From NCBI GenBank assembly GCA_030434245.1, contig JAUISX010000003.1, forward strand, positions 202,001-266,000: a stretch of DNA of 64,000 nt, written 5' to 3'. This stretch comes from Porphyromonadaceae bacterium W3.11. Its GTDB lineage: Bacteria > Bacteroidota > Bacteroidia > Bacteroidales > Porphyromonadaceae. Below, in pieces: positions 1,949 to 24,975 of the stretch. The notes below the pieces were generated by a model that ran no database searches, had not been told where the DNA came from, and saw only the letters and a list, made by a program, of their open reading frames with translations. The position numbers and the translations under genes are program-made. Positions within the stretch are counted from its first letter, which is position 1. Each line of letters opens with the position of its first letter.

Positions 1949-2003
1949 AGTAGTAAGTATCTATTATATCTGTAAATAATCAATCCTTTTGATGAATCAA
2001 TAA

Positions 2004-3356
2004 TTAATTCATCTCTTTATAGAGCTCATCAAGCCCTTTACGAATAATATACTGAAGCTCTAGTTTGGAAGTGTCCACAAACTCACAGAGAGCAAAGTCC
2101 TCAGGTGCTACCTCATAGATCCCAAGCTCTTCCATCTTATCTATATTGAATGCAATAGTGGCTTTCACCAGTTGCTCAGGATAAATATCAAGAGGGAACA
2201 CCTTATCATACTCGTTACTAACGATAATAGCACGAGTTCCACCTTTCAGTCGAGCATCAATATCATATTTTCTACTCTTTCCGAATAAGAATGTTGGGTA
2301 TGATCGGTTCACACTGTATTTTTTCATACCTAAGGCAGCCCACCCAAATAACTCATTCACATCATCACCCTCAGGAATAGCAGAAATGATGTTAGAGAAT
2401 GGGCTCATATACCTATAATCCTCCGTTAATTTAGTCCCGGTAAGGACATCACCATCAATAATCCGGACTGACCTCTTTCCATCCTCAATTTTCCCAGCTG
2501 TCAGGTCATTGACTTCTGAGCCACTCCTTACGGTAGCATATCCTGCACTCTCGAAGCAACTACCAGCAAACACGACTTTGCGACTCATATCCACACGGCC
2601 TGTAGCTAAGAAGCGACCTATAAGAGCCAACTCTGTCAAGCCTATAGCCCACACATTTTCGCCTCTATTTAACGGTTTTGTGTGATTAATGAAGACACTA
2701 GCATTACCAGCTGGATGGGGACCATCAATTTCGTATACCTTGCAGTTCTTAACCTCTAGTGGAGTTCCCTTCTTAACGCCCATATAGACATCCCCCTTCG
2801 TGAGCTTACCAATAACATCAATAGCATTTTGAAGATACTTAAGATCATCTTTCACTAGGGAGATCACGTCTGGCATCAGAGGAGCACTCAAGTAACCAGT
2901 CACATAAATATCACGAGGAGTCACTTTAGGATCCACGATCATATCATAAGGACGATTACGGAAAAGAGCTAATAAACCACTCTCCCCTAGAAGGTTCAGT
3001 ATATCTTCTCTGCTTTTCATTTTAGCATTAGCGACATCGAACTCCTTATAATCAATAGTTGACTCTGGCTTAATTTGCACATAAAGAATCTTTCGCTTAG
3101 CACCACGTTTCACCTCTACGATCTCCCCACTAACCGGAGCGGTCAGCTTTAGCATTGGCTCATTTTTATGATAAATTACCGCATCCCCAGCCTGCACATG
3201 GTCACCCTCCTTTACGGAAAGACGCGGTATGATCCCTGAAAAATGATCAGGAACCACTCCATAAGAACGTACTGGACTAGCAAGGACCTCCACTTTAGGA
3301 GCTTCACCTACAAGATTGATATCCAGTCCTTTCTTTGTTTTAATAACATTAGCCAT
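2004..3356 (-). CDS. nqrA: Na+-translocating NADH:quinone reductase subunit A
   Basis: NqrA is the cytoplasmic subunit of Na+-NQR, associated with ubiquinone/menaquinone binding. The 450-residue product begins with the family's MANVIKTKKGLDI and contains a lipoyl/RnfC-like barrel around residues 30-90 (SVKEGDHVQAGD). No transmembrane helix is apparent, as expected. It is the first gene of the nqr operon: the upstream 291 bp are non-coding and hold a possible TAnnTTTG promoter. Length and the conserved N-terminus make the call secure. The pump generates the sodium motive force that Porphyromonas-type fermenters use in place of a proton-pumping complex I; that physiological role is known for the family, not visible here. 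Confidence 0.95.
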   Translation of the reverse strand: MANVIKTKKGLDINLVGEAPKVEVLASPVRSYGVVPDHFSGIIPRLSVKEGDHVQAGDAVIYHKNEPMLKLTAPVSGEIVEVKRGAKRKILYVQIKPESTIDYKEFDVANAKMKSREDILNLLGESGLLALFRNRPYDMIVDPKVTPRDIYVTGYLSAPLMPDVISLVKDDLKYLQNAIDVIGKLTKGDVYMGVKKGTPLEVKNCKVYEIDGPHPAGNASVFINHTKPLNRGENVWAIGLTELALIGRFLATGRVDMSRKVVFAGSCFESAGYATVRSGSEVNDLTAGKIEDGKRSVRIIDGDVLTGTKLTEDYRYMSPFSNIISAIPEGDDVNELFGWAALGMKKYSVNRSYPTFLFGKSRKYDIDARLKGGTRAIIVSNEYDKVFPLDIYPEQLVKATIAFNIDKMEELGIYEVAPEDFALCEFVDTSKLELQYIIRKGLDELYKEMN

Positions 3357-3398
3357 AATCTTTCAATTAAGAAATATTTATTTTATGATACTTGCGGA

Positions 3399-3406
3399 CA
3401 AACTTA
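3399..3406 (-). promoter_or_regulatory. possible Bacteroidetes -7 promoter box for nqrA
   Basis: On the minus strand the bases read TAAGTTTG, matching the Bacteroidetes -7 consensus TAnnTTTG, 43 bp before the nqrA start. No clear -33 TTTG box lies at the usual 19-21 bp spacing, so this is only a candidate. Confidence 0.3.
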
Positions 3407-3647
3407 CCTATTATTTTGCATATATTAATCTTATTGAGTCAAATAATCGTGAATAATTTTTATTAACACAAGGATTGATCTCCTACCTATACCCAACAGA
3501 GATTCAATGAATAATATCGTCCACTCTTATTCAATTTACGCACAACGACTTGCTAATTAGAAAAAACGTGAGGAAAAAGATAAATGACCATTTACCTAAA
3601 TTCCCCCATTCGAAAATAAAGGTAGTCCATCCAAAACTCAGTACCAC

Positions 3648-4481
3648 TTAAATATAGACAAGTGATACAGCCATTATGATCATTCCAATAATAAGTCCCA
3701 CAATGGAATGGTGGTGATGCCCATACTTTTGAGCTGTTGGTAACAACTCATCTAATGAGATATAAACCATGACGCCTGCTATGGCCGCATTAATCACTCC
3801 AAACAAAGTATCATTTAGGAACGGGGCCAAAATTAAATACCCTATAAGTGCACCCACTGGCTCAGCTAAGCCGCTCGAAAAAGATATCCAAAAGGCTTTC
3901 TTCCTATTCCCTGTTGCATAATAAATAGGAACAGAGACAGAAATTCCCTCGGGTATATTGTGAATCGCGATGGCAATGGCAATAGGCAGAGCCAAGGTAG
4001 GATTTTCGAGAGCCGAGAGAAAGGTCACCATACCTTCTGGAAAGTTATGAATAGCCATAACTAACGCCGAGACTAGACCAGCTCGCATCAGTGCAGAGGT
4101 CTTTTTCTTCTGATCAATCTCATTCCTAAGTTCTTCCGTCATCTCCCCCTTAATGTCCTTCATCTCCATAATTTCATGTGGATTGAGATCCTCTGGAATT
4201 AAGAAATCAATCATCATGATCAGAAAGACACCACCAAAGAATGACAGTATAGAATATAACTGACCATTTTTCTCACCATACATCTCTGACATCATATCAA
4301 TAGAACCACTTAATAGCTCCACAAATGAGATGTAAATCATCACTCCAGCAGACAAACCAAGAGCTACCGAAAGAAACTTTGTATTAGTTTTCTTTGTGAA
4401 AAATGCAATCGCACTACCGATACCAGTAGAGAGCCCTGCAAAAAGCGTTATCACTAAAGCAAATAGTACATTCTCTGACAT
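3648..4481 (-). CDS. ZIP-family divalent metal transporter (ZupT-like)
   Basis: This is an inner-membrane permease of the ZIP family, which brings zinc and related divalent metals into the cytoplasm. The 277-residue product has about eight hydrophobic segments. The two signature metal-site helices are present: HNFPEGM (about residue 145) and HNIPEGI (about residue 175). The charged loop between helices 3 and 4 is the usual variable region, and a short His run (YGHHHHS) lies near the C-terminus. It starts 17 bp after murF and is probably translated from the same transcript. Metal specificity cannot be read from the sequence. ZupT is the closest named relative I recognise. Confidence 0.88.
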   Translation of the reverse strand: MSENVLFALVITLFAGLSTGIGSAIAFFTKKTNTKFLSVALGLSAGVMIYISFVELLSGSIDMMSEMYGEKNGQLYSILSFFGGVFLIMMIDFLIPEDLNPHEIMEMKDIKGEMTEELRNEIDQKKKTSALMRAGLVSALVMAIHNFPEGMVTFLSALENPTLALPIAIAIAIHNIPEGISVSVPIYYATGNRKKAFWISFSSGLAEPVGALIGYLILAPFLNDTLFGVINAAIAGVMVYISLDELLPTAQKYGHHHHSIVGLIIGMIIMAVSLVYI

Positions 4482-4498
4482 TACGTTATCCTATTTTT

Positions 4499-5914
4499 CT
4501 ATTTAGATTGATTATACCAAAATGAAGCCCCACCCTTTCCACTTCTACATGCTGATGCCTCTATCAAGGGCTCGCATCTCTCGAGAGCCATTCCTCGTGA
4601 ACCTTTTATTAGAATAATGGATTCATCTGGTATTTCTAAATTCTTTAGAAACTCTTGTAACAAGTCACTTTGATCAAAATAAAGAGTCGTATTTCGCTCA
4701 CCTTCAACCGCTGGATCATAGTTCAGAGCTTTTCCAAATTCATGACCCACGAGAATAGGAACTATTTCGGGATGCTGTCTTAACCAATTAATGACCTGTG
4801 CATGCTCTTTCTCACTATCTTCGCCCAACTCCAGCATATCCCCAAGCACAACCATTTTATGAATTTTCCTAGTCCCTTCGATATTTTGGAGTGCAGCCAT
4901 CATACTAGACGGATTAGCATTGTAACAGTCCAATATGATGTCAATGCCACGGTTCATTTTCACCAATTGAGACCTATTATTTGATGGAACATAATCTTTC
5001 ATCGCTAAAGCAATATCCCCCATCGTGATACCAAGTTTAATTCCTACGGCCACAGCAGCTAATACGTTGCTAGCGTTATACTTTCCTATCAAATTGGTAC
5101 CAATTTTTTGATGTTCACCTTTGGCTATCACTTCAAGCGACAAATAAGGATCCTCCTCTAAGTGAATCCCTCTTACAAAGTGATCGTGGCCCTCTATTAA
5201 TCCGACCCCATAAGTCAATGCTTCAGAGTGATACCAGTGCTCACGAAGCAATGGGTCATCACCATTCAGGAGATAAACTCCATTCGAATGCTCTAAATAT
5301 TCAAATAGTTCGCTCTTAGCACGCAAAATGCCTTTTTGAGAGCCAAAGCCTTGTAGATGAGCTTTTCCTATATTAGTAATAACCCCTATAGTAGGCTGAG
5401 CGATATCCGAAAGTAGTCTTATCTCTCCCTCTGCACTGGCTCCCATCTCAATAATGGCTACCTCATGTTCAGAAGTTATCTTTAGGATGGTCAAAGGCAC
5501 CCCTATGTGATTATTGAGATTACCCTCTGTCGCTAGGACTCTATATTTTCGACTAAGAACTGCACATGTTAGTTCCTTAGTCGTTGTTTTCCCATTGGTT
5601 CCTGTAATACAAATTACCGGTATATTCAATGATGCTCTGTGCGAGCGTGCGAGGTCTTGTAGTGCCTCAAGAGTATCTTTTACTAATAGACATCTGGGAT
5701 CTGCCTCTGCTAAATCGGGACGAGAGACCACTGCATAGGCAGCACCGAGCTCTAATGACTTTAGGGCAAAGTCATTTCCATCAAATGAAGGGCCCTTTAG
5801 AGCAACAAACAGATCTCCTCGCTTTAGCTTTCTGCTATCTGTACAAACTGAGGGATGCTCTAAAAAAGACTTGTACAATGTTTCCTGATTAATATATATA
5901 GGATTACTCATCAT
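4499..5914 (-). CDS. murF: UDP-N-acetylmuramoyl-tripeptide--D-alanyl-D-alanine ligase
   Basis: MurF adds D-Ala-D-Ala to UDP-MurNAc-tripeptide, the last cytoplasmic step of peptidoglycan precursor synthesis. The product is about 471 residues, typical for the family. The N-terminal Mur ligase domain contains CTDSRKLKRGDLFVALKG. The ATP-binding loop GTNGKTTTKE lies at residues 105-114, followed by the conserved GNLNNHIGVP and EMGASAEGEI segments and a C-terminal domain containing DCYNANPSS. Two in-frame ATG codons sit at the start (5914 or 5911), and I cannot choose between them. Unusually, it lies outside a dcw cluster and is followed by a metal transporter. Confidence 0.95.
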   Translation of the reverse strand: MMSNPIYINQETLYKSFLEHPSVCTDSRKLKRGDLFVALKGPSFDGNDFALKSLELGAAYAVVSRPDLAEADPRCLLVKDTLEALQDLARSHRASLNIPVICITGTNGKTTTKELTCAVLSRKYRVLATEGNLNNHIGVPLTILKITSEHEVAIIEMGASAEGEIRLLSDIAQPTIGVITNIGKAHLQGFGSQKGILRAKSELFEYLEHSNGVYLLNGDDPLLREHWYHSEALTYGVGLIEGHDHFVRGIHLEEDPYLSLEVIAKGEHQKIGTNLIGKYNASNVLAAVAVGIKLGITMGDIALAMKDYVPSNNRSQLVKMNRGIDIILDCYNANPSSMMAALQNIEGTRKIHKMVVLGDMLELGEDSEKEHAQVINWLRQHPEIVPILVGHEFGKALNYDPAVEGERNTTLYFDQSDLLQEFLKNLEIPDESIILIKGSRGMALERCEPLIEASACRSGKGGASFWYNQSK

Positions 5915-6061
5915 TACTACGACATAGTTTTTTCATTTACCAACAAAAGTACCTCAATTTCAGCATTTCTCCACTAACATATTATAGGGATATTTCTCTT
6001 TGTGCTCCAAATGAAAACAATTTAGTCACACCACCATGATTCGAAAGAGGTTAGAGCTACC

Positions 6062-6562
6062 TCAGAGGATATTAAGTGCTATGTGTGCACAGGCTATAGC
6101 ATCTGCCAACGCATGGTGATGATCTCTAAGATCGTATCCACATTGAGCTGATACCGTATGAAGTTGATGATTAGGAAGCTGTTTCCCAAAATAGCGTCGA
6201 GCAGCTTGATAGGTACAGAAAAAGCGATACTCTAGCGGATAGTTCATCTTATACTTGTGAAAGACTGCTTTGAGACAGCTCTGATCAAAAGCCGAATTAT
6301 GAGCGACAAATGGAAGTCCTATAGGCAGGCGAGCAGTGATTTTCTCCCAAACCTCAGGAAAATATGGTGCCTCATCGGTATCCATAGCAGTCAGTCCGTG
6401 TATAGAAGTACATGCCGGTAAATAGTAATTGGGGGACGGATGTATGAGTTCATACAATTGATCAGTAATTTCCCCCTCTTGTACAGTTACAATACCCACA
6501 CTGCACACACTACTGCGGCAGTAATTAGCCGTCTCAAAGTCAATAGCGATAAAGTCTTTCAT
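6062..6562 (-). CDS. 3'-5' exonuclease, DEDDh family (DnaQ/epsilon-like)
   Basis: This is a DNA polymerase III epsilon-like exonuclease domain on its own. All DEDDh elements are visible: FIAIDFETAN (Exo I, Asp-Glu), NSAFDQSCL (Exo II) and HHALADAIA (Exo III, His and Asp). It is about 166 residues from the ATG at 6562, which directly precedes the conserved strand. An in-frame ATG seven codons upstream (6583) is possible but less likely. It is not fused to a polymerase or UvrC domain, so it may be a stand-alone nuclease in repair or RNA processing. It stands alone on the minus strand. Confidence 0.85.
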   Translation of the reverse strand: MKDFIAIDFETANYCRSSVCSVGIVTVQEGEITDQLYELIHPSPNYYLPACTSIHGLTAMDTDEAPYFPEVWEKITARLPIGLPFVAHNSAFDQSCLKAVFHKYKMNYPLEYRFFCTYQAARRYFGKQLPNHQLHTVSAQCGYDLRDHHHALADAIACAHIALNIL

Positions 6563-6915
6563 TGTAAATTGATATAATGACACTTATCCCTCTACCCACC
6601 CTCAAAGTTAATCTATTTTCAAATCGCAAACAACAGCAGGCTGTCATTTGCATATAAACACTAACCCACGAAGAACAGGTCACCCTAAAAAATTAAGCAC
6701 GAAAAAGGTCCTATTCTCAATAAGCACATTACACAATGCCTACATCAAGAATTCCTAAAGGCTTTTTCATTGCATCAGGTTATCTTAATATCATTAGCAC
6801 TATAATTTTTATGCTTAATTTCAAGGTGTAAGGAAGTAACTTACACACCCACTTCTCACTTACAACAAGTAAGATTAGTTAACAAAAAAGTAAGGGCTAA
6901 GTGCAAATAAAATAT
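6563..6915. other. intergenic stretch without a recognisable gene
   Basis: This divergent spacer lies between the exonuclease and the promoter of the structured RNA. It is AT-rich, and I see no open frame with protein-like composition, no tRNA and no strong terminator hairpin. Confidence 0.5.
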
Positions 6916-6923
6916 TACATTTG
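6916..6923 (+). promoter_or_regulatory. Bacteroidetes -7 promoter box (TAnnTTTG)
   Basis: TACATTTG matches the -7 consensus exactly and would start transcription near 6930, just before the stem-loop RNA at 6945-7028. The -33 element is not clear. Confidence 0.45.
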
Positions 6924-6944
6924 TAAGGGTTGATAAGATAAAAA

Positions 6945-7028
6945 AAATCCCAATCAAAGGAGATTCATCTGCTTTATGGCCTCCGCGAAATAAAGCATAA
7001 TGCTGTGAGACCTTTACTTTTGGGATTT
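6945..7028 (+). ncRNA. candidate structured RNA or leader upstream of the DUF4301 gene
   Basis: A perfect 9-bp closing helix joins AAATCCCAA (6945-6953) to TTGGGATTT (7020-7028). A second helix joins AAAGG (6956-6960) to CCTTT (7011-7015). An 8-bp terminal hairpin joins TGCTTTAT (6970-6977) to ATAAAGCA (6990-6997). Between the second helix and the terminal hairpin is an asymmetric open region with 9 nt on the 5' side and 13 nt on the 3' side. A TAnnTTTG box sits about 20 bp upstream. Closing stem, central bubble and terminal stem resemble a miniature 6S RNA, but no known class is matched by motif. It could equally be a riboswitch or leader of the gene at 7160. Confidence 0.42.
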
Positions 7029-7159
7029 GCTTGACATGATTTCTTCTAAGTCATCAACTGTAGAGGCCACTGATTTGGGGCTATATAGAAGTCTTCAACT
7101 CCCTTTAGATGATAATGACAAAACACTTTAAAAAAGAACCACGATAAAAAAGTACATTT

Positions 7160-8707
7160 ATGGCAGAACTACATTTGACGGATGCTGACCTAGAGCAACT
7201 GGAACAGAAAGGCATTTCCAAGCAAGAATTAGAGTCGCAAATAAGACGATTTGAGAAGGGATATCCTTACCTATCTATCGTCCGATCTGCGGATGAAGAA
7301 CATGGCATTATCTCCATGACAGAGGAGGAAATAGAGGAAGTACTGAAGCTATGGGAAGACAAACTTCTATCTCCCTCAAGTGAAGTTGTGAAGTTCGTCC
7401 CTGCCTCTGGAGCAGCCTCTAGGATGTTTAAGGATCTCTACTCTTTCCTCAATGAGGGGAAAATGAATGAGTCCGTCAAGGAAGTACTGGCACACATTAA
7501 GGATTTTGCATTCTTCGATGCCCTGAATAGAGCGTGTATGCTTGGAGAGGGTGGTAAAGGCTGTGAAAAATTGATTCAAATGGGAGCTGAGAAAACAGTC
7601 ATAGAGTACCTCTTAGAACCTAAGGGGCTCAATTATGGAAAGCTCCCCAAAGCACTTTTACTATTCCACAGATACTCAGATGGCTCTCGAACAGCTGCAG
7701 AGGAGCACTTGACGGAAGGTGCTAAATATGCTCGAAACAGTGACGGGACGGTAAAGATACATTTCACTCTTTCCCCTGAACATATTGAGCCCTTTGAGAA
7801 TCTAATGCAGAAGCGTAAAGCTGAACTTGAGGATAGATATTCTGTCGTCTATGATATCTCTCACAGCATCCAAAAGGGCGAAACAGATACCATTGCTGTA
7901 GATATGCAGAATAACCCCATACGTAATGAAGACGGTAGCCTGCTCTTCCGTCCTGGGGGACATGGGGCTCTAATTTGGAACCTAAATGAAATAGACGCTG
8001 ACATCATCTTTATCAAAAACATTGATAATGTAGTGCCTGAATTGCTATCATGTGACACGATTATCCACAAGAAGATAATTGGGGGTTATCTCATCAAGCT
8101 TCAGGATAAGGTATTCAAGTATATGTCACAGTTATCTTCAGAAAAGAAAGCCAATACAGGACTTATCTCTGAGATCCGAGAGTTCCTTGAGGAGTCTTTC
8201 TGTATTGACACAAGTTACTTGGAAGATACAAACTTGGAAGAGCAAATCATCGAACTTCGCAGGCTTCTCAATCGCCCTACCCGTGTTTGCGGAATGGTAC
8301 GTAATGAGGGGGAACCTGGAGGTGGGCCCTATATCGTAAGGTCTGAAGATGGATCTACAGGATTACAGATCTTAGAAAGTAGCCAGATAGATAAGGAGAA
8401 CGAAGAGGACCTAGAAGAGTTTCGAAAGAGTCGATTCTTTAATCCTGTGGATTTAGTTTGTGGGGTTAAGGACTATCGAGGACATAAGTTTGACCTTCTC
8501 TCCTTCGTTGATGAGTCCACAGGATTCATCAGCAAAAAGAGTCAGAAGGGCGTAGAGCTGAAGGCTCTTGAGCTACCAGGACTATGGAATGGTGCCATGA
8601 GTAACTGGAACACAGCTTTTGTAGAAGTTCCGGCCACTACATTTAATCCCGTGAAGATCGTGAATGATCTTCTGAGACCTATACATACAACAAAAATAAA
8701 TTTTTAA
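7160..8707 (+). CDS. DUF4301 family protein
   Basis: This is a 515-residue cytoplasmic protein of the DUF4301 family, common in Bacteroidetes and of unknown function. Recognisable family blocks are the N-terminal LTDADLEQLEQKGI and the phosphate-loop-like KFVPASGAASRMFKDLY (around residues 77-93). GGHGALIWNLNEIDADIIFIKNID and RPTRVCGMVRNEGEPGGGPY follow. The SGAASRM and GEPGGGP segments suggest a nucleotide- or sugar-phosphate-binding fold related to nucleotidyltransferases; this is an inference. It has no signal peptide or membrane helix. A long leader containing a folded RNA precedes it, and it sits 21 bp upstream of an aminopeptidase P gene, probably cotranscribed. Confidence 0.8.
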   Translation: MAELHLTDADLEQLEQKGISKQELESQIRRFEKGYPYLSIVRSADEEHGIISMTEEEIEEVLKLWEDKLLSPSSEVVKFVPASGAASRMFKDLYSFLNEGKMNESVKEVLAHIKDFAFFDALNRACMLGEGGKGCEKLIQMGAEKTVIEYLLEPKGLNYGKLPKALLLFHRYSDGSRTAAEEHLTEGAKYARNSDGTVKIHFTLSPEHIEPFENLMQKRKAELEDRYSVVYDISHSIQKGETDTIAVDMQNNPIRNEDGSLLFRPGGHGALIWNLNEIDADIIFIKNIDNVVPELLSCDTIIHKKIIGGYLIKLQDKVFKYMSQLSSEKKANTGLISEIREFLEESFCIDTSYLEDTNLEEQIIELRRLLNRPTRVCGMVRNEGEPGGGPYIVRSEDGSTGLQILESSQIDKENEEDLEEFRKSRFFNPVDLVCGVKDYRGHKFDLLSFVDESTGFISKKSQKGVELKALELPGLWNGAMSNWNTAFVEVPATTFNPVKIVNDLLRPIHTTKINF

Positions 8708-8728
8708 ATCAAATAATAACATTTACAA

Positions 8729-10522
8729 ATGAAAGACGTAATTAAGAACAGACTTCAGGCACTTCGTAAGGTGATGAAGCAAGAAAATATTGATGCATAT
8801 ATCATACCTAGCTCCGATCATCACCTGAGCGAATACACCCCTGAGTGCTGGAAGAATAGAGAGTGGATAAGTGGATTTAATGGATCTGCGGGTACTGCAG
8901 TAGTTGCACTAGACGAAGCGGGATTATGGACAGATTCACGCTACTTCCTCCAAGGTGCTGAGCAACTAGAGGGAACCACGATCACTCTTCGCAAGGAGGG
9001 ACTACCAGAGACACCTAGTATAGCAGACTATCTTAGGAAGAAACCTGGTGTTAAGAGAATCGGATTCTTGGATAAAGCCATCAGCACTACAGAAGCACTG
9101 GGATATAAGAAAGCGATGGACATCGCTGGTATCGAAATTGTCTCCGACAAAGACCTCATCGGTATGGCTCGTGAGGACATGCCTGAAATTCCTCGCAACC
9201 CGTTCTTCGTACAACCCATTCAGTATGCTGGTGTATCTACAGCTGATAAAATTAAGCAAGTGAGATCCTCCCTAGAGGATATGGGTGCAAATACCTATAT
9301 CATAACCATGCTTGACGAGATTGCTTGGTTCTTCAATATCCGTAGCAATGACGTAGCTTACAATCCCGTAGGCATCGCATACGGACTCATCACGCCTCGT
9401 GAGGTTATCCTTTATACTTTCCCCGAAAAGCTTCCTACGGAAGTCAAAGAGCATCTAAAGGAAAATGGCGTTACGATAAAAGAATACAACGAAGTATATA
9501 CAGATGTAGCTAACCTAAAGGATAGCGATGTACTCTGCCTTGATCCCATCCGGACCAACTACGCCTTCTACCGTGCTGTACCTAGCCACGTAACTAAGAT
9601 ACAGCAGCTTAGTCCTATCACATTCCATAAGGCCGTGAAGAATGAAGCTGAATATAAGGGATATTACACCGTAATGAATCGTGACGGAGCTGCTCTAACT
9701 CGTTTCTTCATGTGGTTAGAAAAGACTCTAGCTGAGGGCAATAACCCAACTGAGTATGAAATTGGAGAGAAACTCTCTGGCTTCCGTGCTCAGGATGAGA
9801 AGTATGTGAGTGATAGCTTTGGGACCATCGCTGGATATAACGATCACGGTGCGATTGTTCACTATAGTGCTACCCCTGAAAGTGCCTATAAGCTGGAGCC
9901 TAAGGGGATGTTGCTTTTAGATTCAGGGGGTCAGTACTATGATGGTACCACCGACATCACTCGTACTATTTCACTAGATGGTAAACCTAGCCAAAAGCAG
10001 AAAGATGACTACACACGTGTACTAAAGGGGCATATTCAGTTAGCGACAGCTATCTTCCCTCAAGGAACTCGTGGCTCTCAATTAGATATCCTTGCTCGTA
10101 AGGCTCTTTGGGACAACTGTCAGAACTATGGTCACGGTACAGGTCATGGTGTAGGTCATTTCCTAAATGTCCACGAAGGTCCTCAAAACATTCGTATGAA
10201 TGAGAATCCTACAGAGCTAGTACCTGGTATGGTTACCTCTAACGAACCTGGCATTTACATCACAGGCGAATATGGTATCCGTATCGAGAACCTTATCCGC
10301 ACCATACCATTTAAGAAGTCAGTAGATGGGGCTTTCTATGCCTTTGAGACCTTAACGGTCTGCTATATGGATAATAGCTTAGTCAATGTAGATCTGATGG
10401 AGCCTAACGAAATCAAGTGGTACAACGACTACCAAGCAACCGTTTATGAGAGAATATCTCCATTGCTCAGTAAGGAAGAGGCTGCTTGGCTTAAAGCTAA
10501 GACAGCTCCTCTTAAGAAGTAA
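8729..10522 (+). CDS. Xaa-Pro aminopeptidase (aminopeptidase P, M24B)
   Basis: This is a metallo-aminopeptidase that removes an N-terminal residue preceding proline. The 597-residue product has the three-domain architecture of the long (eukaryotic-type) aminopeptidase P: two creatinase-like N-terminal domains and a C-terminal pita-bread catalytic domain. The metal ligands are visible in LLLDSGG and GTTDITRT (two Asp), GHGVGHFLNVHEGP (His), TSNEPGIY (Glu) and GIRIENL (Glu). There is no signal peptide, so the enzyme is probably cytoplasmic and finishes breakdown of imported proline-containing peptides. This fits a peptide-fermenting lifestyle. It follows the DUF4301 gene by 21 bp. Confidence 0.93.
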   Translation: MKDVIKNRLQALRKVMKQENIDAYIIPSSDHHLSEYTPECWKNREWISGFNGSAGTAVVALDEAGLWTDSRYFLQGAEQLEGTTITLRKEGLPETPSIADYLRKKPGVKRIGFLDKAISTTEALGYKKAMDIAGIEIVSDKDLIGMAREDMPEIPRNPFFVQPIQYAGVSTADKIKQVRSSLEDMGANTYIITMLDEIAWFFNIRSNDVAYNPVGIAYGLITPREVILYTFPEKLPTEVKEHLKENGVTIKEYNEVYTDVANLKDSDVLCLDPIRTNYAFYRAVPSHVTKIQQLSPITFHKAVKNEAEYKGYYTVMNRDGAALTRFFMWLEKTLAEGNNPTEYEIGEKLSGFRAQDEKYVSDSFGTIAGYNDHGAIVHYSATPESAYKLEPKGMLLLDSGGQYYDGTTDITRTISLDGKPSQKQKDDYTRVLKGHIQLATAIFPQGTRGSQLDILARKALWDNCQNYGHGTGHGVGHFLNVHEGPQNIRMNENPTELVPGMVTSNEPGIYITGEYGIRIENLIRTIPFKKSVDGAFYAFETLTVCYMDNSLVNVDLMEPNEIKWYNDYQATVYERISPLLSKEEAAWLKAKTAPLKK

Positions 10523-17793: not shown

Positions 17794-17801
17794 TACCTTT
17801 G
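17794..17801 (+). promoter_or_regulatory. -7 promoter box of the riboswitch-led transcript
   Basis: TACCTTTG matches the Bacteroidetes TAnnTTTG consensus and is followed by GCA, a common context. Transcription would start near 17807, exactly where the closing helix of the cobalamin aptamer begins. A clear -33 box is not seen. Confidence 0.62.
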
Positions 17802-17806
17802 CAGCG

Positions 17807-18005
17807 ATTTGCAAGGCACATTGGAATTTGGTATAAAAAAGAGCCCATAGGCTAATATATTTTGAAGCCAAAGCTGTACCCGCAGCCGTAAGTCCTATAA
17901 CATAACTCCATCTACTGGAGCTCATAGAGCTCCATACCACTGCTCCATTACGGAGTGGGAAGGTAAGAATGAGAGGGGATGAGCCGGAAGACCTACCTTG
18001 CAAAT
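17807..18005 (+). promoter_or_regulatory. cobalamin (B12) riboswitch
   Basis: The aptamer's closing helix pairs ATTTGCAAGG (17807-17816) with CCTTGCAAAT (17996-18005). Inside are the class hallmarks. GGAATTTGGT (17823-17832) pairs through GCCAAA (17867-17872). The conserved core CCCGCAGCCGTAAG (17879-17892) corresponds to the family CCCGCAACTGTAAG. The B12 box GAGCCGGAAGACCTACC (17981-17997) corresponds to GAGCCAGGAGACCTGCC. A GGAGCTC/GAGCTCC hairpin (17918-17934) forms the peripheral arm. The 223 nt after the aptamer contain a hairpin at about 18153-18193 shortly before the start codon, so control of translation initiation or of attenuation is plausible. It governs the TonB receptor and PepSY genes. 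Confidence 0.9.
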
Positions 18006-18228
18006 AGTATTGAAGTGAACTTGATCACTACCAACTTCACTCTACCTAGGCTTTCGGGAAAAAGAGCCCATAATACTTAGTCTTGTCACAAAATGCCCCA
18101 TTTAGGGACGCGTTGTATCATGATGTAGTGTTTCTTTCTCCTAAGTCATCGCCTTGAAGAGTTGTTGGGATCAGTCCTAACTTCAACTGCAGAAACTATT
18201 TTATCACTTATCATTTAAAAATTTAAGA

Positions 18229-20637
18229 ATGAGGCGAAAACTTTTTTGGGCAATCATCCCGTTACTAGTCATGGCTATGCCACTTACAGCAAGTGCGAAA
18301 GACGATAAGTCTAATAACATCAGCCAACCCACCACTAATGAACCTGACACAACTTACTACCTAACTAATGTTGATGTCTCAGCTAAACGGAGGGTGAAGA
18401 TGTCTAAGCTAGATGTAGAGCTAAAAGACCTACCTCTAACCGTTAATAACATCTCACTACAGCCTCTTAAACTTAGAGGTATATTTGACTTCCAAGAAGC
18501 AACACGCTTTGCCCCATCTGTTAATACCAGGACCACATATGGAGCGTTTCAGCAAGTGAGTGTGAGGGGATTTGACTACTCTCCTGTAGAAATTGATGGT
18601 GTACGTGATGAGCGTACGACGTTCAATTCATATCCTCTCCCTGACCTTACAATGGTAGAGAGTATCGAAGTCAGCAAGGGTCCAGCTTCAGTCCTTAGTG
18701 GACACTCCTCTGTTGGTGGATCGATCAATATTGTTAGAAAATCTGCTACGAACGTACCACAACTAGAGCTTCTACTGATGAATGGCTCTTGGAACACCTA
18801 CCAAGTCAGCGGTACTATTGGTGGAAAACTCGTTGATGGCATTAACACCTTATTTAACTTCAATAGATCTGGTGGTGACCAATGGAGAGACCTTGGGAAC
18901 AGACGCTTCTCGGTGTATAACAATACAAACTTCAGACTCGCTCCTAAGCATATCTTAGACCTACGTCTTAGCTATAATAAAGACTTCTATGGTACAGAGG
19001 CAGGACTACCAGCAACAATGCCGGGAGACATCACAGTGGAAAAAACAGGCAAGGTTATATACAAAGAAGGCGATAGGCTTAGAGGACTCAATAGAGCTCA
19101 GAGATATAATAACAATAGCGACTTCATGTTCAATGAAAGTGCTAATGCTCTATTGAGATACACCTTCTACATGAACGAGGATTGGAAGTTATCTAACAAA
19201 GCTATGTATAGCTACGACGTTATTGATTACTTCTCTACTGAGTCTCTAAGCTATCCTGAAAGTTCGGATCCTATCTATCCATACTTTTATATGAGAGGTG
19301 ACAAGAAGAAGTATATAGACCTCGATCATGTACAGCTGACATTCCCTCTACGATTCCAACACGTGGCTAAGACTTTTCAAGACCATTTAGACATCACTGG
19401 AAATTTCAATATAGGAACCATCAAAAATAGCATTCTGCTTGGCGGCTCATACACCATAATGGATCGGGTATCCTTCTCTGGTTATGGCGTAGCTGGCGAA
19501 CCTCAGTCCGCTCACAACCCTGCAGATGACATCGATGTATGGGGACCAGGTGTAAACTCTGTCATTTCATCATACAACCCTGATAATTCAGCTCCGATGT
19601 TTGAAAGATTTAGTAAAGCATCTCCATCGGAAACACAGGTTATCGGTGTTTTCTTCCAAGACATGATGGACTTTTCCAAACACCTTAAGGGTTTTGTGGC
19701 ACTGAGATACAATAACTATGGTATCAAGCACTTCACAAAGTCTGATGCTATTGATAGAAAAGCGAAATATGAGCGTGGTGAGCAAACAGCCAACTTGATT
19801 TATAATTCGCTCACTTATAGATTTGGACTGGTTTACCAACCCATTGAAGATCTATCAATATACACTAGCTATTCTAACTTCTTCGTTCCTGACCGTCGTG
19901 CAAGGTCCTTTAGTGAAAAACAAATCTTAGTGGATAAGAAGGGAAACACTATAGACCAAAGTAAATTAGATTTTAGCAAAGCTATTTTTGATCCAACTAC
20001 TGGATACCAAGCTGAGATTGGAACTACATTTAATATCTCATCTAAACTTAATGGTAGTCTATCAGTTTACCACATCAAGCAAGAAAACCTCGTACGTACC
20101 ATTGGTACCATCCCTGGTGTCATTGATGGAAAGCCTATAGACAAATCAGTAGTAGCTCAAGTTGGCACAGTATTATCTACTGGGGTAGAGTCTGAAATCA
20201 ATTATAGCCCGCTAGAGAACTTATTCTTCAGCATCGGTTACGGGCTTACTCATGCACGCTACGGAGAGATCGCAAAGAATGAATATGACCTGAAGGGGGT
20301 TGACAAGGGAGATAGACTAAATTATATCCCAAGAAACACATTCTTCAGCTTTGGTAACTACACCTTCAATAAAGGACTCTTAAGTGGGCTTGACCTTAAC
20401 TATAGCGTCACTTATACAGATAAGATTTACCGAAACTTTGGTAGAAATATCTATTACGACCCATACATGCTACTTAATCTCGGTGCTCGCTATACGATTG
20501 CCAATTCAGGTGTGTCTATAGGTCTGCAGGTAAATAACGTCTTAGACAAGCACTATGTGGCTCAGTCACTGGGCAACCAAGAAGTACCAGCGATGCCTCG
20601 TAACTTCAAGTTGATGATCAATTATAAGATTTGGTAA
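18229..20637 (+). CDS. TonB-dependent outer-membrane receptor, siderophore-receptor type, under B12 riboswitch control
   Basis: This is a TonB-dependent transporter of 802 residues that imports a scarce ligand across the outer membrane using TonB energy. A signal peptide (residues 1-24, cleavage after TASA) precedes a plug domain (about 65-175; AFQQVSVRGFDYSPVEIDGVRDE and IEVSKGPASVLSGHSSVGGSINIV). A 22-strand barrel follows, ending in LMINYKIW with a terminal aromatic residue. By sequence it resembles ferric-siderophore receptors rather than classical BtuB. The cobalamin riboswitch upstream and CbiZ downstream argue that its ligand is a corrinoid. I therefore call it a TonB receptor with probable corrinoid substrate. 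The PepSY gene follows 6 bp later. Confidence 0.9.
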   Translation: MRRKLFWAIIPLLVMAMPLTASAKDDKSNNISQPTTNEPDTTYYLTNVDVSAKRRVKMSKLDVELKDLPLTVNNISLQPLKLRGIFDFQEATRFAPSVNTRTTYGAFQQVSVRGFDYSPVEIDGVRDERTTFNSYPLPDLTMVESIEVSKGPASVLSGHSSVGGSINIVRKSATNVPQLELLLMNGSWNTYQVSGTIGGKLVDGINTLFNFNRSGGDQWRDLGNRRFSVYNNTNFRLAPKHILDLRLSYNKDFYGTEAGLPATMPGDITVEKTGKVIYKEGDRLRGLNRAQRYNNNSDFMFNESANALLRYTFYMNEDWKLSNKAMYSYDVIDYFSTESLSYPESSDPIYPYFYMRGDKKKYIDLDHVQLTFPLRFQHVAKTFQDHLDITGNFNIGTIKNSILLGGSYTIMDRVSFSGYGVAGEPQSAHNPADDIDVWGPGVNSVISSYNPDNSAPMFERFSKASPSETQVIGVFFQDMMDFSKHLKGFVALRYNNYGIKHFTKSDAIDRKAKYERGEQTANLIYNSLTYRFGLVYQPIEDLSIYTSYSNFFVPDRRARSFSEKQILVDKKGNTIDQSKLDFSKAIFDPTTGYQAEIGTTFNISSKLNGSLSVYHIKQENLVRTIGTIPGVIDGKPIDKSVVAQVGTVLSTGVESEINYSPLENLFFSIGYGLTHARYGEIAKNEYDLKGVDKGDRLNYIPRNTFFSFGNYTFNKGLLSGLDLNYSVTYTDKIYRNFGRNIYYDPYMLLNLGARYTIANSGVSIGLQVNNVLDKHYVAQSLGNQEVPAMPRNFKLMINYKIW

Positions 20638-20643
20638 TTCTCT

Positions 20644-22125
20644 ATGAAGGTTTTCAAAGTCATCCATAAATGGCTAGGAGTCATCATGGCTCCACTGATG
20701 GTCATGTGGTTCATCTCTGGGTTCTTCATGATATTCAGTGGATTTCCTAGAGTAGAGAATAGCAGTAGATTCAGCTTGCTGGACACGCTGTCCTCTACTG
20801 ACTCTTTACCACATGCCTCACAACTTAGGTCCTGGTATATCCAAAAGACTAAGAGTGGAGCGGAACTGACTGAAATAGGTATAGAAAAGAGTCCAAGAGG
20901 ACTCTTTCTAAACCTATCTGGTACTGAGGGCAACGTAATGATTGAGGCCTCCAATGGAGAGGTAGCAAAGGTTATAAAGCCTAGCATTGAGGATATCGAG
21001 GAGATGACCTATAGGATCACTCAGCAATCCCCTATGCGTATCGATACGCTCAATAATCTTGAACAATGGATCCCGTTCTCAGCACAGAGAGCTGAATTTC
21101 CAATATACAAAGTAGCTGTAAACGATGGTCACGATACTCATCTGTATTTCTCAGGACAGAGCGGAAGATTGCTCCAACAGACAAATAGCAACAATCGCTT
21201 ACTGGCATGCTTTGGAGCTATCCCCCATTGGCTTTATTTCTGGCCTATCAGACAGAACATAGACTTGTGGATAAATATTTTCATTGTCCTAGGTATTGTA
21301 GGATGTCTGATGATTATATCGGGGCTAGTAATGGGGATATTCCGAACCTCACAAGCCCGAAAAGGGAAGGGCAAAAAGTGGAGTCCGTACAAGAAACGGT
21401 GGTATTACTGGCACCACATTACAGGATTAATCTTTGGTATTTTTGTCCTCACTTGGATGTTCAGTGGATGGATGTCTCTTGATAAGTTACCGAGCTGGAT
21501 GACTGGACCAACACCGGATAAAGAGTATTATACACTATCTAGAAGTTTGCCTATAACTTCGGGCATTAACCTAGACTTCGATAAAGCGATAGAAATATAC
21601 CCAAATGCTAAGAGAATAACATACGGTAGTTATTTAGGCCAGGGTTATTACGTGATAGAAGATGGGACTAGTAAAGAGTATGTACAGATCGAAGACGGAA
21701 TTGTCCAGCCGCTAAAGGTTTCAGAGGAGCAGGCCAAAACGTATCTGACTGCAGAACTTCCACAGGTAAAAATTGAGAGCTGTAGGACGTTGACAGACTA
21801 CACGGCTAATTATCTCCCTCATCCAAAAGGGCGTCACAAGCCTCCACTACCTGTATTCGAAGTCAAAACAGATGACGGTACAACCTTATACATGGCTTCG
21901 ACAGAACCCAGAGTACAAGTAACGAACAAAGCAACCGTACTCAACTCTTGGGCATATCAAAAGCTTCATGCCTTTAAGTTCCTATGGGCATACCACCATC
22001 CAGCCCTATGGATGGCTCTTATGCTGATACTACTATCAGGTGGTACTCTTGTGAGTATTACGGGAATTGTACTTGCTTGGAATGTGCTTCGCCGCCAGTT
22101 CAAAGGAAGAAAGAAAAACTCGTAA
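20644..22125 (+). CDS. PepSY-associated transmembrane protein
   Basis: This 493-residue inner-membrane protein of the PepSY-TM family has an N-terminal helix (about 5-30; HKWLGVIMAPLMVMWFISG). Helices follow around 200-230 and 260-285 (YYWHHITGLIFGIFVLTWMFSGW), and a C-terminal one lies around 455-480 (YHHPALWMALMLILLSGG). Periplasmic PepSY-like domains lie between them. His residues sit in or next to the helices (HKWLG, WHHITG, YHHPAL), as expected of haem-coordinating members thought to reduce ferric siderophores. It lies 6 bp after the TonB receptor gene, so both are under the cobalamin riboswitch. A role in reducing or releasing a cobalt corrinoid is an inference; iron uptake is the alternative. 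Confidence 0.82.
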   Translation: MKVFKVIHKWLGVIMAPLMVMWFISGFFMIFSGFPRVENSSRFSLLDTLSSTDSLPHASQLRSWYIQKTKSGAELTEIGIEKSPRGLFLNLSGTEGNVMIEASNGEVAKVIKPSIEDIEEMTYRITQQSPMRIDTLNNLEQWIPFSAQRAEFPIYKVAVNDGHDTHLYFSGQSGRLLQQTNSNNRLLACFGAIPHWLYFWPIRQNIDLWINIFIVLGIVGCLMIISGLVMGIFRTSQARKGKGKKWSPYKKRWYYWHHITGLIFGIFVLTWMFSGWMSLDKLPSWMTGPTPDKEYYTLSRSLPITSGINLDFDKAIEIYPNAKRITYGSYLGQGYYVIEDGTSKEYVQIEDGIVQPLKVSEEQAKTYLTAELPQVKIESCRTLTDYTANYLPHPKGRHKPPLPVFEVKTDDGTTLYMASTEPRVQVTNKATVLNSWAYQKLHAFKFLWAYHHPALWMALMLILLSGGTLVSITGIVLAWNVLRRQFKGRKKNS

Positions 22126-22147
22126 CCACTAAGGCACTACATTTTCA

Positions 22148-22185
22148 CCCCCAAATGATCTTAGATAACCTAGATTATTTGGGGG
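22148..22185 (+). terminator. stem-loop terminator after the receptor/PepSY operon
   Basis: CCCCCAAATGATCT (22148-22161) pairs with AGATTATTTGGGGG (22172-22185) over 14 bp with one G-U pair and a 10-nt loop, 22 bp after the PepSY stop. The following T tract is short. Confidence 0.65.
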
Positions 22186-22422
22186 TTAATACATCTCGCA
22201 CTTGTGTCTTCAAAAACATCCTATGAGTATCTTTATAGAATATACCAAATGAAGGGTAATAAAATGTATCAATGCAACTTTGGTATCAAAACTTTCATCG
22301 AAATTGACCTAATAATTAGAGCGAAGATTTACAGAGCATTATTGTAGGCAAGACAGCTCAATGATGTTCGAAATATTGGGTAAATTTGTCTATTATTCAA
22401 GCTAATTATTAATATTGTAGAG

Positions 22423-22525
22423 AAGGTCTCGATAGACCTTAGGATATAGTTTTTTATATCTATCATAGTATAACATTAGATATACGAAAGGAGAGTCTTG
22501 TTACTTGTATAAAGTATGATTCTCC
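22423..22525 (+). other. hairpin-rich leader upstream of the binding-protein gene
   Basis: Three successive stems are visible: AAGGTCT/AGACCTT (22423-22440), GATATA/TATATC (22443-22460) and GGAGAGTC/GATTCTCC (22490-22525, with ACTT/AAGT nested). A TAAATTTG box at 22381-22388 could start this leader. The cobalamin-aptamer core and B12 box are absent, so it is not a second B12 riboswitch of the common class. Confidence 0.35.
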
Positions 22526-22607
22526 ATTAGAAGCCAACATCATTTGAATAAAGCACATTAAATAATTAATATATCATCTATTGATAACAAATAAAGAATT
22601 AACCACC

Positions 22608-23783
22608 ATGTCAAAAAAATTACTTTTCATTTTTCTCACCACTCTGCTACCATTCTTAATCGGATGTAGTGGTGAAAGTAGCCAACAACAAAAAGAGGGC
22701 AAGGCTTCACCAGAAGCAATTGAGGACTTTGACTTTCCTGTGAAGGTTAAGTATGCAAAGGGCTTCACTGTTGAAAATCATGAAACCTACAAGGTTTTGC
22801 ATATAAAAAATGCAGACCAAAAAGACTCAGAAGATACTTTCGTCCTATACTTAAAAGGCGAGGAGCGTCCTGAATATGATGGCATGGTCACTAACTATAT
22901 CCCCATCCCAGTGTCTAAAATCATTACCACCTCTAGTGTACAGATCGGAGCCTTTCCAATACTCGAGGGCGAAGAGAGCATCATAGGCTCTACTTCATTT
23001 CAGTACATTAGCAATGAGACTATTCGCCAGCGTGCAGAGGATGGATTGATAAAAGAGGTCGGCATGGGGATGTCCAATAACTTTGAATTGATACTCTCTC
23101 TAGAGCCGGAAGTCCTTCTCCTTGATTACGTTGGCTCACCAGAGGAAGCTGAAAAATACAAAGCGTCTGGACTCGCATTGATGATTTTTAATTCGTGGAA
23201 AGATCAAAGCTTGCTTGGCCGTGCTGAATGGCTTAAGGTGATTGGATTGCTCTTGGGAAAGAATGAAAAAGCGGATGATGCATTCCAAGAGGTTGCAACC
23301 AACTATATGGCAGCAAAGAATCTTTTATCTGAGGATGACGAGTGGATCCCTATCATGTATGGACAGGACTATAAGGGGACATGGTATGTACCTGGCGAAC
23401 TAAGTTATCCTGCGAATATGTTTAATGATGCAAAGCTGAGCTTTGACTTCATTGCTGGTGAGACGGATAGCCAACCTAGGAGCATAGAGGAGATTTTTGC
23501 AAAAAATCGTCACGCTTTATATTGGTTCTCATCGTTCTATGCAGACTGCGAAACGGTAGCCGATTTTGCAACAATAAACGAACGTTATAGAAATTTTGAT
23601 GCCGTAAAAAAGGGGAAAGTCATCTCTGACCGTAAGAGAGTCAATGGATTTGGTGGAAATGATTACTGGGAAAGTGGACCTTATCGTCCCGATCTCTTAC
23701 TAAAAGACTTGATCAAGATCACACGTCCAGAATTGTTACTAGATTATGAAACAACCTACTGGATGGAATTAAGGAGGGAGTAA
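22608..23783 (+). CDS. periplasmic-binding lipoprotein, BtuF/FecB-like
   Basis: This is a substrate-binding protein of the class III ABC-importer family (vitamin B12, siderophore and haem binding). The start ATG at 22608 opens directly onto a lipoprotein signal (MSKKLLFIFLTTLLPFLIGC; lipobox Cys20), giving about 391 residues. An earlier in-frame codon at 22581 only adds a polar extension. The first lobe contains ITTSSVQIGAFPILEGEESIIG, the linker region GMSNNFELILSLEPEVLLLDYVG, and the second lobe contains PIMYGQDYKGTWYVPGELSY. No permease or ATPase follows. Next to cbiZ and downstream of a B12-controlled operon, a corrinoid ligand is the best inference. Confidence 0.82.
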   Translation: MSKKLLFIFLTTLLPFLIGCSGESSQQQKEGKASPEAIEDFDFPVKVKYAKGFTVENHETYKVLHIKNADQKDSEDTFVLYLKGEERPEYDGMVTNYIPIPVSKIITTSSVQIGAFPILEGEESIIGSTSFQYISNETIRQRAEDGLIKEVGMGMSNNFELILSLEPEVLLLDYVGSPEEAEKYKASGLALMIFNSWKDQSLLGRAEWLKVIGLLLGKNEKADDAFQEVATNYMAAKNLLSEDDEWIPIMYGQDYKGTWYVPGELSYPANMFNDAKLSFDFIAGETDSQPRSIEEIFAKNRHALYWFSSFYADCETVADFATINERYRNFDAVKKGKVISDRKRVNGFGGNDYWESGPYRPDLLLKDLIKITRPELLLDYETTYWMELRRE

Positions 23784-23841
23784 AATCGGTATCATCAACT
23801 TCCATTTCGTCATTGATATGTAATTCGACAGAATACGGACA

Positions 23842-24975
23842 ATGTTTGCAAAAGAGAACCTTAAATACATTAGCCCCATGGGGGATGAGATGTACGTCGA
23901 ACACGATAGTCTCATTGTCCGACTCATGGGGCATAGAGGGATCGTCAGCAGCTCCAACCTCAATGGTGGATACCGTGAGGACGTGAAGTATATATACAAT
24001 CATAGCTGTGCGAAAAATCCGTTTGTCTTAGCTAAGAAAGAGACGGAAATACAAGAAAGCACGCTCGATGAATACTTCGAGGAGCTAGCCCTTCATATTG
24101 GGCTACCAGTGGATTCTACGACGGGCATGGATACCGCGGCAAAGATTGAAAATCTCGCGATTTCTACCCGTCAAGTGCATGGGGTGAAGGTGATGGCGGT
24201 TGCTACAGCTGGGATTGATGTCAATGGTGGTAGAGCTGGGGATAAAGCCACTTACGATGAGTTCGCAAAAGAGGGGCTTCCCATTAAGTCTGGAACCATA
24301 AATATCCTCCTCTTCATTGATGCAAATCTTAACGCTGGGGTACTAACTCGTGCAATCGTCACAGCGACGGAAGCTAAATCTGCTGCTTTGCAAGAATTAA
24401 TGGCCAATAGTATGTTCTCGGAAGGGATTGCTACTGGCTCTGGCACCGACTCTATCGTCATTGTAGCTAATAAGGACTCCAACACACCCCTCTACAGCTC
24501 AGGCAAGCACGTTCTACTTGGACAGATGATTGGCGAAAGCGTAAAGGAGGCGGTGTCAAAGGCTCTGGATAAGCAAACGGGGATGAATCCGCGTCGCCAA
24601 GCGTCTATTGAATGGCAGTCCAAACGATATGGTATCACAAAGGATAATATCCTAAACCACTTTTGCGACATCTCTAAACAACAATACGATATTGAACGCA
24701 TCAGGAGACGAATTGACAAAATAGATACGGATGAATATATTTTGGCTTACGTCGCAGCCATCACTCACCTGTGTGATCAAAACAGATGGAATATCCTAAG
24801 TGATGACGTGCTCATAACTCTTGCCAACGAACTCATAAACGGGCTTATAAAAAAACATCATATCGATTTTATTGTTTCAATAGACAAGGAAGCAATGCCG
24901 AAAAGAAAAGGATACAAGCTAGTTATTGAACACACAATGATCGCTCTAGCTATCATTGCCTCTAATCCTCAATAA
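23842..24975 (+). CDS. cbiZ: adenosylcobinamide amidohydrolase
   Basis: CbiZ hydrolyses the aminopropanol side of adenosylcobinamide or pseudocobamides, returning adenosylcobyric acid so that the lower ligand can be remodelled. The 377-residue protein contains the CbiZ domain with its conserved runs TTGMDTAAKIENLAIS, VMAVATAGIDVNGGRAGD, GTINILLFIDANLNAGVLTRAIVTATEAK and ATGSGTDSIVIVANK. The C-terminal 90 residues (from about IDKIDTDEYILAYVAAITH) go beyond the core domain, as in other Bacteroidales homologues. It follows the binding-protein gene by 58 bp. This is the strongest protein evidence that the surrounding locus handles corrinoids. Confidence 0.9.
   Translation: MFAKENLKYISPMGDEMYVEHDSLIVRLMGHRGIVSSSNLNGGYREDVKYIYNHSCAKNPFVLAKKETEIQESTLDEYFEELALHIGLPVDSTTGMDTAAKIENLAISTRQVHGVKVMAVATAGIDVNGGRAGDKATYDEFAKEGLPIKSGTINILLFIDANLNAGVLTRAIVTATEAKSAALQELMANSMFSEGIATGSGTDSIVIVANKDSNTPLYSSGKHVLLGQMIGESVKEAVSKALDKQTGMNPRRQASIEWQSKRYGITKDNILNHFCDISKQQYDIERIRRRIDKIDTDEYILAYVAAITHLCDQNRWNILSDDVLITLANELINGLIKKHHIDFIVSIDKEAMPKRKGYKLVIEHTMIALAIIASNPQ

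Follow-up and report, generated by a model that had tools for sequence, protein, structure and literature searches.

In a 64,000-nucleotide stretch of the genome of Porphyromonadaceae bacterium W3.11 (the window; contig JAUISX010000003.1, positions 202,001 to 266,000 of the forward strand), a cobalamin riboswitch precedes two genes, which encode a TonB-dependent receptor of the siderophore type and a PepSY protein of the inner membrane. We propose, with a probability of roughly 0.55, that this unit (unit 1) is a B12-repressed module, combining an outer-membrane receptor with a reductase, that provides chelated cobalt for B12 synthesis. The genes for a BtuF-like lipoprotein and CbiZ, which follow as unit 2, are proposed from their family assignments to be a separate unit for corrinoid handling. 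The cobalt source of B12-making gut and oral Bacteroidota is an unsettled question, on which unit 1 would bear if the proposal is right.

The riboswitch lies at 17797-18014 on the forward strand and is the sole gathering-level match returned by cmscan for the whole window (RF00174, E = 2.4e-11; its 56.4 bits exceed the cut-off of 31.5). An earlier note on this DNA had called a cobalamin aptamer from its motifs and suggested the Rfam search as a check, and the search result bears out the call. The core (17879-17892), the B12 box (17981-17993) and the 10-bp closing stem (17807-17816 paired with 17996-18005) can be read in the sequence. Our own covariance model R1, in which the window sequence is itself included, gives the aptamer 123.9 bits. 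Directly 5' of it, where a promoter had also been noted, stands TACCTTTG (17794-17801, +), which we take to be a Bacteroidota-type -7 promoter box, assuming the consensus TAnnTTTG. The riboswitch family suggests that control would be by repression in the presence of B12. Among the 11 cobalamin riboswitches of the 2.63-Mb host genome, that of the window has the lowest score.

The receptor gene (18229-20637, +) starts 214 nt past the aptamer and encodes 802 residues, which contain the barrel and plug domains of TonB-dependent receptors (Pfam). As judged by sequence, this receptor is not BtuB, scoring 30.8 bits with the B12 receptor model TIGR01779 (cut-off 599.7) and 20.2 bits with PRK10641 (BtuB, cut-off 836). 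The nearest subfamily is that of the siderophore receptors, TIGR01783, where its 189.5 bits lie under the cut-off of 223.5. A sequence search for solved relatives gave mostly siderophore receptors and, at E 1e-5, did not find BtuB. The structure model (pLDDT 83.2) has FhuA, Fiu and PiuA as best matches in the PDB; each of the 50 structural matches shown is to another TonB receptor, siderophore receptors on top and BtuB absent. In a quick tree of 60 rows, the receptor is placed in a 35-row Bacteroidota clade (support 99) that shares its side of the tree with FhuA, Fiu and FhuE, while E. coli BtuB, FepA and FecA, HmuR, and the BtuB-like and XusA-like receptors are on the opposite side; long branches lead to the E. 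coli rows, and only the split itself is used. The description of this receptor as unlike classical BtuB thus stands, and the tree that had been suggested to examine it separates the receptor from BtuB.

The gene for the PepSY_TM inner-membrane protein (20644-22125, +; 493 residues), a predicted FoxB-like reductase, begins 6 nt past the receptor stop, with no gene in between. The earlier gene account left it out, although the receptor, BtuF-like and CbiZ genes that it listed are all there by family match. The protein matches PepSY_TM (PF03929) with 45.7 bits, above the gathering cut-off of 28.8. A search by sequence for a solved relative gave no convincing match; its predicted fold matches that of the siderophore reductase FoxB, and the invariant histidines are present. 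The protein is predicted to bind haem and act as a reductase.

To determine the distribution of the receptor, we sampled 148 genomes evenly across the Bacteroidales; membership of its clade was assigned to best matches above 590 bits (E 1e-30), the best 7 candidate places per genome being scored. The clade is present in 7 of these genomes, which span six families, and CbiC, the marker of de novo synthesis, in 14. All 7 receptor genomes have CbiC (Fisher p = 1.3e-8, kinship ignored), and with this scoring none of the 134 genomes without CbiC yielded a member of the clade. Of the 148, 139 carry cobalamin riboswitches. If the receptor served corrinoid salvage, it should turn up in many genomes that do not make corrins; that it was found in none of the CbiC-negative ones indicates that the clade follows de novo synthesis rather than salvage. 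A further 39 genomes with related PepSY genes, most of them without cbi genes in the stretch examined, were surveyed for CbiC. It is found in 33 of the 39, and the six CbiC-negative genomes are all metagenome assemblies by title. Eighteen of the genomes with named loci have a PepSY gene linked to a riboswitch. CbiM, the only cobalt transporter family searched in them, is missing in 17, while CbiC is present in all 18, so CbiM does not explain their cobalt route.

Riboswitches and corrin-synthesis (cbi) genes recur around related PepSY genes. Ten related genomes contain 17 long-class PepSY genes, 7 of which have a same-strand cobalamin riboswitch at most 8 kb upstream; of the 7 genes in the short, high-scoring class, none does. 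We then considered 80 PepSY loci, the best of 267 found with profile A1, of which 64 have a cobalamin riboswitch at most 9.5 kb upstream on the same strand, a rate that is biased because 7 of the 11 rows of the profile themselves sit behind riboswitches; two partial riboswitch matches (of 88) were excluded from the count. The cbi genes follow at most 8 kb downstream in 28 of the 64. Among the 16 loci that the script left uncounted, L122 and L142 do have an upstream riboswitch by coordinates, L148 has a partial match at the contig start, and six (L099, L105, L108, L115, L125 and L133) run off their contigs. Between riboswitch and PepSY gene, the script labels, which are best BLAST hits to proteins of the host and of genome G003, some named by reading, give a window-type receptor in 41 of the 64 loci and a XusA-like receptor in 7; in the remaining loci the receptor comes after the PepSY gene or is unlabelled. 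The typical operon, found in Bacteroides fragilis (L095) and Dysgonomonas alginatilytica (L130), consists of a riboswitch, a BtuB-like receptor, CbiK with a signal-like start, a window-type receptor, PepSY, CbiC-H, CbiE-T and CbiG-F, the domain names being borrowed from host-genome homologues. In the fetched stretches of G051, G133, G153, G177 and G202 the riboswitch is upstream of the receptor, as in the window, and in G012 the receptor is on its own.

Makers of B12 need cobalt. Siderophores bind Co(III) tightly and release from such complexes needs reduction, so that a siderophore-type receptor together with a FoxB-like reductase would suit the uptake of chelated cobalt. According to the mechanism that we propose, low cellular B12 would allow the riboswitch to permit expression of unit 1, and the receptor would import, driven by TonB, a cobalt chelate, perhaps a complex of Co(III) with a foreign siderophore. 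At the inner membrane the PepSY protein, predicted to bear haem, would then reduce the Co(III) and so release it as Co(II). This would enter through a CbiM-type transporter encoded elsewhere in the host, and CbiK would insert it in the course of anaerobic corrin synthesis. The genes for CbiM and CbiK are present in the host, and their link to unit 1 is presumed. Control of cobalt transporters by cobalamin riboswitches has been described (PMC7689651, PMC3766115).

The gene content of the host makes it likely that B12 is made by the anaerobic, early-cobalt route. Family matches were obtained for CbiH-C, CbiE-T, CbiG-F, CbiL, CbiD, CobU, CobT, CobS and CobC, and one operon encodes a CbiK-like protein, CbiM (262 bits against a cut-off of 184, at G000:C3:167813), a 95-residue protein at the CbiN position, a CbiO-like protein of 668 residues and a CobA-type methyltransferase. 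CbiG, CbiK, CobS, CobC and CbiO do not reach the cut-offs of the strictest models; the survey did not extend to CbiA, CbiP, CbiB or the genes of early haem synthesis. Among the proteins of unit 1, Pfam and NCBIfam scans gave no CbiM match.

Three other roles for the pair have to be weighed. The earlier note had assigned capture of corrinoids to the receptor, and one can picture these, perhaps incomplete, being imported and the PepSY protein reducing the corrinoid cobalt or stripping the upper ligand before BtuF, BtuCD and CbiZ take over. The cobalamin riboswitch upstream of the receptor and the BtuF-like and CbiZ genes 0.5 kb downstream fit such a role, as does G051, a genome of another family, where riboswitch, receptor and PepSY are followed by a second riboswitch with btuF, btuC and btuD. 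We nevertheless consider it rather unlikely, since both the sequence and the fold of the receptor are of the siderophore type and the clade was found in none of the CbiC-negative genomes in spite of the wide occurrence of cobalamin riboswitches in the sample. In addition, in the excerpt of PMC12751083, which ends at operon 3, the gene table of cobamide operons 1 and 2 of B. thetaiotaomicron, a species without B12 synthesis (PMC6143338), names no PepSY gene. With its clade found only in CbiC genomes of the sample, its FoxB-like partner and the cbi genes at 28 of the 64 loci, the receptor more probably serves cobalt supply than corrinoid capture.

The closest solved relatives of the receptor are ferric siderophore receptors, and the XusABC system of B. 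thetaiotaomicron (TonB receptor, lipoprotein and PepSY) imports iron siderophores (PMC13142918) and is induced by iron depletion (PMC10434189). The pair could by this token take up ferric siderophores or haem, under B12 control by chance, or iron for a linked purpose, but the recurrence of both the riboswitch and the cbi linkage makes this improbable, and a scan of the whole window that allowed up to 3 mismatches revealed no Fur box of the E. coli type, although Bacteroidota Fur sites may differ. It is also very unlikely, in our estimate, that the receptor imports a tetrapyrrole precursor or a metal-tetrapyrrole for corrin synthesis, with an exported CbiK-like chelatase acting in the periplasm. 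CbiK-like proteins with signal-peptide-like starts (by eye) do stand directly before the receptor in many operons, and the host riboswitch operon L009 includes an HmuY gene and a CobN-like gene (named by reading); however, unit 1 has no chelatase gene, and the CobA-type methyltransferase of the host would make precorrin-2 from uroporphyrinogen III.

Several points also weigh against cobalt supply. The cobalt-chelate ligand of the receptor is a prediction, and the host genome already has CbiM. CbiM was rejected as the complement of the receptor: in the 148-genome sample, 4 of the 7 genomes with the receptor have it, as do 2 of the 7 that have CbiC but no receptor. This lack of complementarity weakens any argument from absence, and the two could work in series, one per membrane. 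At seven of the 80 PepSY loci the upstream sequence is available but holds no riboswitch (L092, L126, L146, L158, L162, L166 and L169). No riboswitch is detectable before the receptor and PepSY genes of Porphyromonas somerae, whose products are 71% and 49% identical to those of the window, while a distant member of the receptor clade in the same genome does follow one (L070). Within the same family, receptors at L055, L057, L058, L060 and L061 have neither a riboswitch nor a PepSY neighbour (at L059 the contig stops just past the receptor). BtuB-like receptors are frequent in the same operons, placing corrinoid traffic close by, and a complete set of cbi genes does not free four Bacteroidales species from the need for B12 (PMC6593275).

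A wider and more speculative extension of the cobalt reading, which we put forward tentatively and regard as somewhat doubtful, is reductive cobalt piracy in corrin-making Bacteroidota. B12-repressed receptors would take Co(III)-siderophores, FoxB-like PepSY proteins would free Co(II), and an exported CbiK-like protein of the gut relatives, starting with histidine, would carry cobalt through the periplasm. If true, this would provide the first confirmed outer-membrane cobalt receptor and would mean that cobalt can be acquired as a reducible chelate. Unit 1 would then supply a testable receptor, release step and regulator, and annotations naming such genes as siderophore or B12 uptake would be corrected.

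Of the 41 plus-strand CbiK-like proteins of L094-L171, 25 have AH or GH as the last two residues of the signal-like start, as judged by eye and with the pattern match at L125:2911 discounted. The mature protein would then start with histidine, giving a possible metal-binding N-terminus. In genome G003 (contig C92; L075 and L083), XusA-like, XusB-like and PepSY genes stand directly before homologues of CbiC-H, CbiE-T, CbiG-F, CbiL, a BtuF/BtuD-like transporter and CbiD in one gene run; the transporter might be a CbtJKL-like cobalt importer.

Units 1 and 2 are separated by a strong, terminator-like hairpin (22147-22186, +; -23.8 kcal/mol, z -6.1), which has no long T run and is not among the terminator-scan results. 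As had been claimed, the second transcription unit encodes a BtuF-like periplasmic binding lipoprotein (22608-23783, +; 391 residues, lipobox by eye) and CbiZ, an adenosylcobinamide amidohydrolase (23842-24975, +; 377 residues). The first matches Peripla_BP_2 (PF01497) with 105.5 bits, with no match to a BtuF equivalog model, and the second PF01955 with 176.3 bits, against a gathering cut-off of 27. They are 48% and 57% identical, respectively, to the BtuF-like protein and CbiZ of the host riboswitch operon L015, and are paralogues of its first and last genes; its middle genes are BtuC-like and BtuD-like, plus CobN-like and chelatase-like genes, the latter two named by reading. Given this paralogy, corrinoid handling and remodelling is a reasonable role for both proteins. 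That part of the earlier proposal is consistent with the family matches, although no riboswitch was detected before btuF-cbiZ by Rfam, by model R1 or by R1 unfiltered, whose best score there is 10.3 bits, on the opposite strand. Its further suggestion that the two units form one pathway finds no echo elsewhere: in the best-hit tables of receptor-orthologue loci no CbiZ-like gene is seen and a BtuF-like neighbour appears only at L062 and L100, so that a single pathway rests on proximity in the window.

The leader of unit 1 (18015-18228, +) contains the expression platform, for which a terminator and masking of the start site are both possible mechanisms. The fold of 18015-18240 (-52 kcal/mol) is weakly more stable than shuffles, with a z of only -1.9, and we therefore claim no control mechanism. 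The 14-nt sequence AAAAAGAGCCCATA occurs twice, in an insert of the aptamer (17836-17849) and in the leader (18059-18072), and may join an alternative fold.

Other B12 loci of the host were also recorded. A second B12-riboswitch operon (L018; G000:C1:528000-541000, 852-9514) encodes a BtuB-like receptor, a CbiK lipoprotein, a XusA-like receptor, a XusB-like lipoprotein (no Pfam match) and a PepSY protein, apparently a Xus-like set under B12 control. Cobalamin riboswitches also stand before a glutamate dehydrogenase gene, an unusual target (L010; G000:C5, 772-2717; 97.5 bits), and before a gene for an NrdD-like anaerobic ribonucleotide reductase (L016; G000:C3, 9717-12358; named by reading), a known kind of B12-independent substitute. 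Two four-gene riboswitch operons (L013 and L014; G000:C2) have equal protein lengths (446, 432, 545 and 445 residues) and near-identical starts, and each is followed by the same 385-residue protein, by context a transposase. Copies of this protein lie near the B12 loci L009, L010, L012-L014, L087 and L176, and a second, partial CbiC match is found at G000:C7:19497; given these, the B12 genes of the host seem to be mobile.

According to a 2021 review, no cobalt-specific outer-membrane receptor has been confirmed (PMC7689651). In the literature covered, which is represented by excerpts and leaves supplementary gene lists outside, we found no statement joining PepSY proteins or the window receptor to cobalt or corrin synthesis. 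An earlier prediction of the receptor-PepSY pair for cobalt may exist, given the content of four papers. Predicted cobalt genes named cnoABDC and cbtFACDX are cited in PMC8123684, whose appendix includes a "Co-transporter" when listing the genes of B12-making genomes; the row that follows names Bacteroides fragilis and Parabacteroides. Six Bacteroidetes are counted with other predicted Co transporters in PMC2667541, more than 20 riboswitch-controlled genes per Bacteroidaceae genome are catalogued in PMC3766115, and a riboswitch operon of X. ruminicola combines four cobalamin-synthesis genes with two TonB transporters (PMC11575231).

Unit 1 resembles XusABC of B. thetaiotaomicron (BT_2065-2063) in that a TonB receptor is encoded with a PepSY inner-membrane protein, and PepSY proteins beside Xus-type systems have been proposed to reduce siderophore iron (PMC13142918). 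Unlike XusABC, it has no DUF4374 surface lipoprotein (XusB) between receptor and PepSY, its receptor falls outside the clade of XusA-like receptors from riboswitch operons (BT_2065 itself is not in the tree), and it has a cobalamin riboswitch, whereas BT_2063-2065 rise upon iron depletion (PMC10434189). FoxB (PDB 7abw) and the PepSY protein are about 13% identical, with 365 and 493 residues, and, in contrast to FoxB, the PepSY class of the window is linked to corrin genes, its reductase role being predicted. TonB receptors predicted for cobalt in Novosphingobium likewise lie behind (adenosyl)cobalamin riboswitches near cobalt and B12 genes (PMC7689651), but there with a NiCoT permease and CobW, whereas the window has a reductase-like PepSY gene and its relatives CbiK and cbi genes. 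The BtuB-BtuG and other B12 uptake loci of Bacteroides share the combination of cobalamin riboswitch and TonB receptor, but unit 1 has no BtuG-like gene and its receptor clade is seen only in CbiC genomes of the sample. The PepSY-receptor pairing is thus known from iron, in XusABC, and TonB receptors under cobalamin riboswitches have already been predicted for cobalt; what is new, as far as the literature covered extends, is a reductase-like gene and receptor inside corrin operons, restricted to CbiC-bearing genomes.

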